Below, one piece after another: positions 26,505-27,816 of a stretch of 32,092 nucleotides of DNA. Under the pieces are notes generated by a model. That model was not told the origin of the DNA and ran no database searches. It was given only the letters and a program-made list of their open reading frames with translations. The stretch spans positions 1 to 32,092 of the forward strand of contig JAAXHD010000068.1 of the NCBI GenBank assembly GCA_012271015.1, read 5' to 3'. Source of the DNA: Candidatus Poribacteria bacterium. Lineage in GTDB: Bacteria > Poribacteria > WGA-4E > WGA-3G. The position numbers and the translations under genes are program-made. Numbering within the stretch: the first letter of the stretch is position 1; every line of letters begins with the position of its first letter.

Positions 26505-27431
26505 CTATTGCTTTTTCTGAAGAATAAATCTCAACTGTAGAGTTTCTGCTGCATAGTTGTCAAGTTCGCCGGTGTTTTTTCTCGGTGCAGATGCTGCTGG
26601 TTCGAAATTAGTGACGAGTGCTTCTAACATCGGTTTTCTATTAGATTCCTTTGCACCGACATGATAAAAATGTTTTCTCGTGATGACATTAAATTCTGAC
26701 CATAAATTCAGAATCTCGGGATTTTCTCTATGTTCGTTGCTATGCCAGGTTGAAAGGATGAACTGCGCTTTTGTTGTTTTCAAATCTTGATAGAGCAATT
26801 TTTCGTGTGTTTTATTTCAAGTGTTAAAGTAATCGGTATGTCGCCCTGCATAAGGTGGATCACAGTAGATGAGGTCGGTCTCGGTTGCACCAGACAGAGT
26901 GATGCGAAAGTCCTGATGCAAAAAAGTCCAGTCGCTGAGGCTAGCACGTTTGGCGACCCATTCTACCTGATTCACAATTTTGGTGACGTACGCTTTAGAG
27001 AAACGTTCCGGCTTATGTCCGAACGGCACATTAAACTCGCCTTTCCTATTGAAGCGGAGGAGCCCGTTAAAACAGGCGCGGTTCAAAAACAGAAAGTCTA
27101 AAGGAGACTTTCCTACATTAAATCGTTTTCGGACTTCATAATAGTAATCTGCACCGTATTTAGCTAAGTTACTTCCTTCTGATTCGAGGAATTCCCGGAC
27201 AATAATCGGAGTTATTGTGCCTTGGTTTATTCCCTGATAGAAGGAAATAAGATGTGGATTTGTATCGCAGAAAAGTGCCCTGCGCGGTTTGAGGTTAAAC
27301 CCGACGACCCCCGACCCCATGAATGGTTCAATCCAAACTCCTTCTCCGTTCCATTGGCGAGTCTCTGCTATTCATGCAACCAATTTGCTTTTGATACCTT
27401 GGCACTTTATCGGTGGAATAAGGACCTTCAT
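26505..27431 (-). pseudogene. EcoRV-type DNA adenine methyltransferase (D12 class) with two in-frame TGA codons
   Basis: Open reading from ATG 27431 ([46 protein letters not shown]...LIYCDPPYAGRHTDYFNT*NKTHEKLLYQDLK...) in one frame; TGA at complement(27372..27374) and complement(26817..26819). Confidence 0.85.
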
Positions 27432-27816
27432 TTTGAGCGTGCTTTCCTTTGTGAGGCGCGCGGAACAACAAGACTTGTATCTCCGCCTCTATAGACGACG
27501 AAATCATGCAGATTTGTAATCTTTGTCGTTTTGCCCGTATCATCCTGCACGGTAATCTTCCCGTAATTCATCCAATAGTCATCAAACCAATTTTCGCCTA
27601 ACAACCTAAACATACCGTTGCCTGCCAGAATGTCAGCGATTTTATTGATACTACCTATGTTTGCAGTATTACCACTGAAATTGTATAAATCCTCCGGTAA
27701 ATATCAATGAAACCTTTGATCGTCCACTGTCCATCAGCAGTACTAACGTACGCATTGAGCGTTTTAACAAATTCATTCAATTTCGTGCTAAATACGCTCT
27801 TTATTGTTTCTTGCAT
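27428..27816 (-). pseudogene. EcoRV-like restriction endonuclease remnant: N- and C-terminal parts only, frame-disrupted
   Basis: N-part MQETIKSVFSTKLNEFVKTLNAYVSTADGQWTIKGFIDIY; C-part in another frame LPEDLYNFSGNTANIGSINKIADILAGNGMFRLLGENWFDDYWMNYGK...NLHDFVVYRGG resembles EcoRV C-terminus (SGNTTNIGSI...EFLDYWRNYER...WIYRGRK); stop overlaps methylase start (ATGA). Confidence 0.75.

Follow-up and report, generated by a model that had tools for sequence, protein, structure and literature searches.

A probable three-gene relic of an EcoRV-like Type II restriction-modification cassette in Candidatus Poribacteria

Decay of restriction-modification (R-M) systems, and the solitary (orphan) methylases derived from them, are already described in the general literature, for example in PMC3488263 and PMC4687349. 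In a Type II R-M system, loss of the methylase in the presence of an active endonuclease kills the cell; loss of the endonuclease is harmless. The described systems closest to the locus considered here are EcoRV (PF09233), the D12-class adenine methyltransferases of the M.EcoRV type (PF02086, TIGR00571), and the GmrSD-like Type IV or HEC-06 proteins (PF07510, PADLOC). The locus lies in a 32,092-nucleotide stretch of DNA from a Candidatus Poribacteria bacterium (hereafter the window; contig JAAXHD010000068.1), and a literature search on Poribacteria and restriction-modification returned no title on an EcoRV-type locus in these bacteria. Overall, the locus is read, at a probability of about 95%, as the relic of a chromosomal EcoRV-like Type II R-M cassette of three genes (in order, a GmrSD-like gene, an endonuclease, and an overlapping D12 adenine methylase), all inactivated, with a deletion in the endonuclease followed by decay of the methylase. 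Both ends of the window endonuclease align with EcoRV, but the window copy is without EcoRV residues 35–182 and is frameshifted, while intact orthologues in related Poribacteria share the PD...DxK motif and the SGNT loop of EcoRV and are longer (281 compared to 245 aa), with N- and C-terminal extensions. The window methylase likewise resembles the M.EcoRV type in being adjacent to and downstream of the endonuclease, with an ATGA overlap and a DPPY motif, but its frame is broken by two premature TGA stops and ends early at a TAG. The remnant of the third gene and the intact neighbours in the relatives (582–614 aa) match the GmrSD-like and HEC-06 models, though the gene occurs here alone beside an EcoRV cassette and is truncated in the window. 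As in described cases of R-M decay, where the endonuclease is broken and the methylase often left, sister genomes retain an open methylase; the window differs in that the methylase is dead too, a later stage.

The minus-strand segment 27816–27428 is an EcoRV-family endonuclease pseudogene with the catalytic core deleted. A Pfam profile search matched the C-terminal piece to positions 178–244 of PF09233 Endonuc-EcoRV (E = 6.7e-24, 85.1 bits; cut-off, 25 bits) and the 40-residue N-terminal piece to positions 1–18 (E = 0.0075 when searched alone; E = 3.1e-6 at genome level), with the score rising to 96 bits when the two were joined. EcoRV was the sole significant PDB match of the remnant (phmmer, E = 2e-4). 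The EcoRV-family identity put forward in the initial annotation is upheld by these matches, and both of the peptides it described are encoded where it had placed them. The 3′ remnant has 94% amino acid identity to its orthologue in G008, one of the intact relatives, and keeps the recognition loop SGNT (EcoRV 183–186) as SGNTANIGS; the catalytic PD...DxK motif (EcoRV D74, D90, and K92) is absent from the window copy and present in the intact relatives examined.

Coding length falls from 843 nt in the relatives to 386 nt in the window, leaving 129 of 281 codons. The junction reads ATTTC/AGTGG, with A27676 as the base of microhomology, and the deleted codons 48–199 correspond, by alignment to EcoRV, to residues 35–182, D74, D90, and K92 included. 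The N-terminal frame runs for 47 codons, to ...FIDIYRRIYTIS, before the junction and, because 457 is not divisible by three, the 5′ part then leaves its frame and stops after 53 residues, so that the gene, frameshifted and without 152 codons, has no open reading frame across its length. Alignment with intact same-locus orthologues from five congeneric genomes bears out the earlier proposal that the catalytic core had been deleted, and the intact allele to be sought in related genomes is a 281-codon gene at the same site in all five. The first estimate of about 130 remaining codons was accurate, whereas the loss had been underestimated (about 430 bp and 140 residues, compared to 457 bp and 152 codons). 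The junction had been set at about 27707, with the true position (27677/27676) some 30 nt further along, and ‘LPEDLYNF’ arises when the final correct codons are translated out of frame. Two further pseudogenes, the methylase and the GmrSD-like gene upstream of the endonuclease, had been overlooked.

Assignment of the methylase to the D12 class rests on its PF02086 match and on a CDPPY motif that lies in frame between its two TGA stops. It has 85% amino acid identity to the intact G008 methylase, and its start at 27431 lies inside the TGA stop of the endonuclease 3′ remnant (the ATGA overlap). Its reading frame is interrupted by TGA at codons 20 and 205, and a third premature stop, TAG at 26507–26505, brings an early end. 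Were TGA read as tryptophan or read through, the methylase could be functional and solitary beside a dead endonuclease, and both of the TGA stops do fall at tryptophan positions, with TGA ending only one of the 19 intact genes in the window (TAA, 12; TAG, 6). Recoding is nonetheless improbable and was rejected because long window genes, of up to 2,484 codons, are open without internal TGA; TGA also serves as the endonuclease’s own terminator in the window and in the relatives, and the premature TAG would be left in place. Further, the changes unique to the window methylase (12 nonsynonymous to 4 synonymous, compared to 52 to 73 pooled over five relatives; Fisher p = 0.016) show the nonsynonymous excess expected for a gene that appears to be under relaxed constraint. 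The remnant endonuclease pieces carry 2 nonsynonymous and 3 synonymous window-unique changes, too few sites for dating the death of the endonuclease; a recent deletion or too small a sample may account for the lack of a clear amino acid excess.

The GmrSD-like remnant is without the first 281 of 614 codons and has 87% amino acid identity to residues 282–614 of the G008 protein. The gene is absent in G017 and in a second methylase lineage and, because G017 keeps an intact endonuclease and methylase without it, its loss may be independent. A gene resembling retropepsin-type aspartyl proteases (LILDTGASLTTLNP) occurs between the isomerase-like and GmrSD-like genes in G008 and G032. Coordinates of all features are collected in Table 1.

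Table 1. Positions of features in the window and at the corresponding loci of related genomes (window coordinates unless a locus is named).
Feature	Position	Strand	Basis or remark
DUF2961 gene, intact flank, marks shared site	25197..26342	-	PF11175 E=2.1e-76; synteny
D12-class (M.EcoRV-type) adenine methyltransferase pseudogene	26505..27431	-	PF02086 E=2.1e-33; TIGR00571 dam E=9.8e-48
Methylase codon 205 nonsense TGA	26817..26819	-	TGG (Trp) in 5/5 syntenic relatives
Methylase codon 20 nonsense TGA	27372..27374	-	TGG (Trp) in 5/5 syntenic relatives
Endonuclease 3′ remnant, codons 200-281, out of frame with 5′ remnant	27428..27675	-	PF09233 E=6.7e-24
Deletion junction, 457 bp missing, frameshifting, 1-bp (A) microhomology	27676..27677		MAFFT alignment against five congeneric orthologues
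Endonuclease 5′ remnant, 47 codons, MQETIKSVF...FIDIYRRIYTIS	27676..27816	-	Alignment; 85% aa identity to G008 residues 1-47
GmrSD / HEC-06-like (DUF262-DUF1524 type) 3′ remnant	27886..28890	-	PF07510 E=3.4e-9; PADLOC HEC-06 E=5e-11
GmrSD-like remnant nonsense TAG	28162..28164	-	CAA or CAG in four relatives keeping the gene
Xylose isomerase-like TIM barrel gene, intact flank, marks shared site	28934..29767	-	PF01261 E=9.1e-37; synteny
G010 endonuclease	residues 1-66 left		Methylase open
G022 endonuclease	residues 1-105 left		Methylase open
G025 endonuclease	residues 132-279 left		Methylase open
G044 endonuclease	residues 216-278 left		Methylase open
G066 endonuclease	residues 185-214 left		Methylase open
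G018 endonuclease, split by ~1-kb insertion with transposase-like frame, plus TAA			Methylase open
Insertion in L034 (G018:C1)	about 6823-7884		Near endonuclease residue 27; short inverted ends GTGAGTTTG / CAAACTCAC
G002 scrap, L030 (G002:C568), 91-codon open frame	2764-2489		Tails of endonuclease and methylase joined by an in-frame deletion
Retropepsin-like gene	L023 10449-10940; L025 10174-10680		LILDTGASLTTLNP

The cassette occupies the same chromosomal site, between the TIM-barrel isomerase-like gene and the DUF2961 gene, in five congeneric genomes (G008, G013, G017, G032, and G035; ~79–90% DNA identity), and the named relatives with the locus are Candidatus Poribacteria. The intact 281-codon endonucleases of these five genomes score 370–400 bits against PF09233, and that of G008 matches EcoRV across nearly the whole chain (E = 1.5e-40). 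Matches to PF09233 were found in 35 of the 193 relatives searched, and the methylase in 38 of the 72 genomes of the order, where every full-length methylase frame other than that of the window is open; G025 has an extra, partial methylase copy at a contig end with one TGA. Six other genomes combine a broken endonuclease with an open methylase, each with a different breakpoint (Table 1), and the five that bear fragments require five separate changes on the methylase tree. Another dozen genomes have an open methylase and no recognisable endonuclease, though the G015 contig stops at the methylase. Among the genomes of the order, none combined a broken methylase with an intact endonuclease, and methylase scraps were confined to genomes that are also without an endonuclease (G002 and G054). 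The 91-codon frame of G002 couples a C-terminal stretch of the EcoRV family (AFFVAEKWKIASDKSGSGNT...) in frame to the cognate methylase’s tail and is a second locus at which endonuclease and methylase are both dead. All six single-gene breakages thus fell in the endonuclease (p = 0.03, two-sided at equal odds), a count that treats each distinct breakpoint as one event and is no formal phylogenetic test.

The deletion and the stops rest on a single assembly, one MAG of 4.94 Mb (438 contigs, 83.6% complete), and such a short-contig assembly might have collapsed or mis-joined a locus that is intact in the true genome. This has little likelihood, given that homology at the junction is limited to 1 bp, with no collapsible repeat, that the five relatives are colinear with the window on either side of the junction and across both flanks, that independent nonsense codons occur in the methylase and the GmrSD-like gene, and that endonuclease fragments of this kind are also seen in single-contig genomes (G010, G022, G044, and G066). 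That the endonuclease pieces have been retained to serve some other function, for example as a DNA-binding fragment whose loop acts as regulator or decoy, is highly unlikely despite the intact SGNT loop and the 94% identity of the C-terminal piece, as the frameshifted 5′ piece terminates at 53 residues, the sole start in the 3′ piece is an internal ATG whose 61-aa product would lack the loop, and no particular piece is conserved (other genomes keep residues 1–66, 1–105, 132–279, or 216–278).

For a relic of an inactivated R-M cassette, the following course is proposed. The ancestral endonuclease presumably cleaved an EcoRV-type site (GATATC, by homology), with the methylase protecting the host. 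One illegitimate 457-bp deletion would have taken the catalytic core and shifted the frame, with only a 53-residue peptide still possible. With no endonuclease left to guard against, the methylase would have been free to decay, gaining two Trp-to-TGA codons, and the GmrSD-like gene would have lost its 5′ half and gained a TAG. For the window lineage, death of the endonuclease ahead of the methylase is drawn from the state of the relatives rather than seen directly, and the decay series agrees with what is established for such systems, in which the toxic endonuclease is expected to go first.

As an R-M relic the locus is ordinary, showing a known kind of decay, and the comparative series is useful without changing the picture. 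Dead restriction cassettes are common; this one gains value because closely related uncultured symbionts preserve the cassette in living, half-dead, and dead states, so that the order of loss is readable by comparison. It is probable that, in sponge-associated Poribacteria, EcoRV-type cassettes have repeatedly become solitary methylases by independent endonuclease losses that leave the methylase unharmed, with the window as a terminal stage at which the methylase is dead as well. If so, endonuclease-first decay could be followed across the clade as a natural time series, and these genomes would be suited to asking why orphan methylases of the GATATC type stay in use. The six endonuclease-only breakages, compared to zero methylase-only breakages, are natural data supporting the addiction logic of R-M systems. 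For annotation, a functional label would be wrong for all three broken genes.

Counts of GATATC were made in 58 genomes, with Markov expectations from samples of five. The observed/expected ratio was 0.59–0.76 by genome density, a moderate depletion of a site whose recognition by the cassette’s enzymes is predicted from homology. GATATC was depleted in all five samples, yet it was not among the most depleted palindromes. Avoidance of GATATC was rejected as a footprint of restriction, being non-discriminating, since the site is depleted also in G005, which is without either gene. Six other palindromes (CATATG, TTCGAA, GGCGCC, GACGTC, CTCGAG, and AGCGCT) occurred at 0.1–0.4 of the Markov expectation in at least one of G000, G005, G010, G018, and G007, and the depleted palindromes suggest a heavy past of other R-M systems in the genus.

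A second apparent Type II pair lies on the minus strand of the window at 18620–20403, where an N6/N4 DNA methylase (PF01555, E = 1.4e-45) precedes a 276-aa protein that matched neither a family profile nor a PDB entry. The N-terminus of this protein (FPDLAIKL...GELIELK) includes a possible PD-(D/E)xK nuclease motif, and it is possibly an undescribed endonuclease. In a Methylococcaceae bacterium (PMDM01000215.1, 3310–6068), the gene after an intact EcoRV-type endonuclease is a DNA methylase other than the M.EcoRV type, and a second methylase-like frame comes next, a possible swap of partner.
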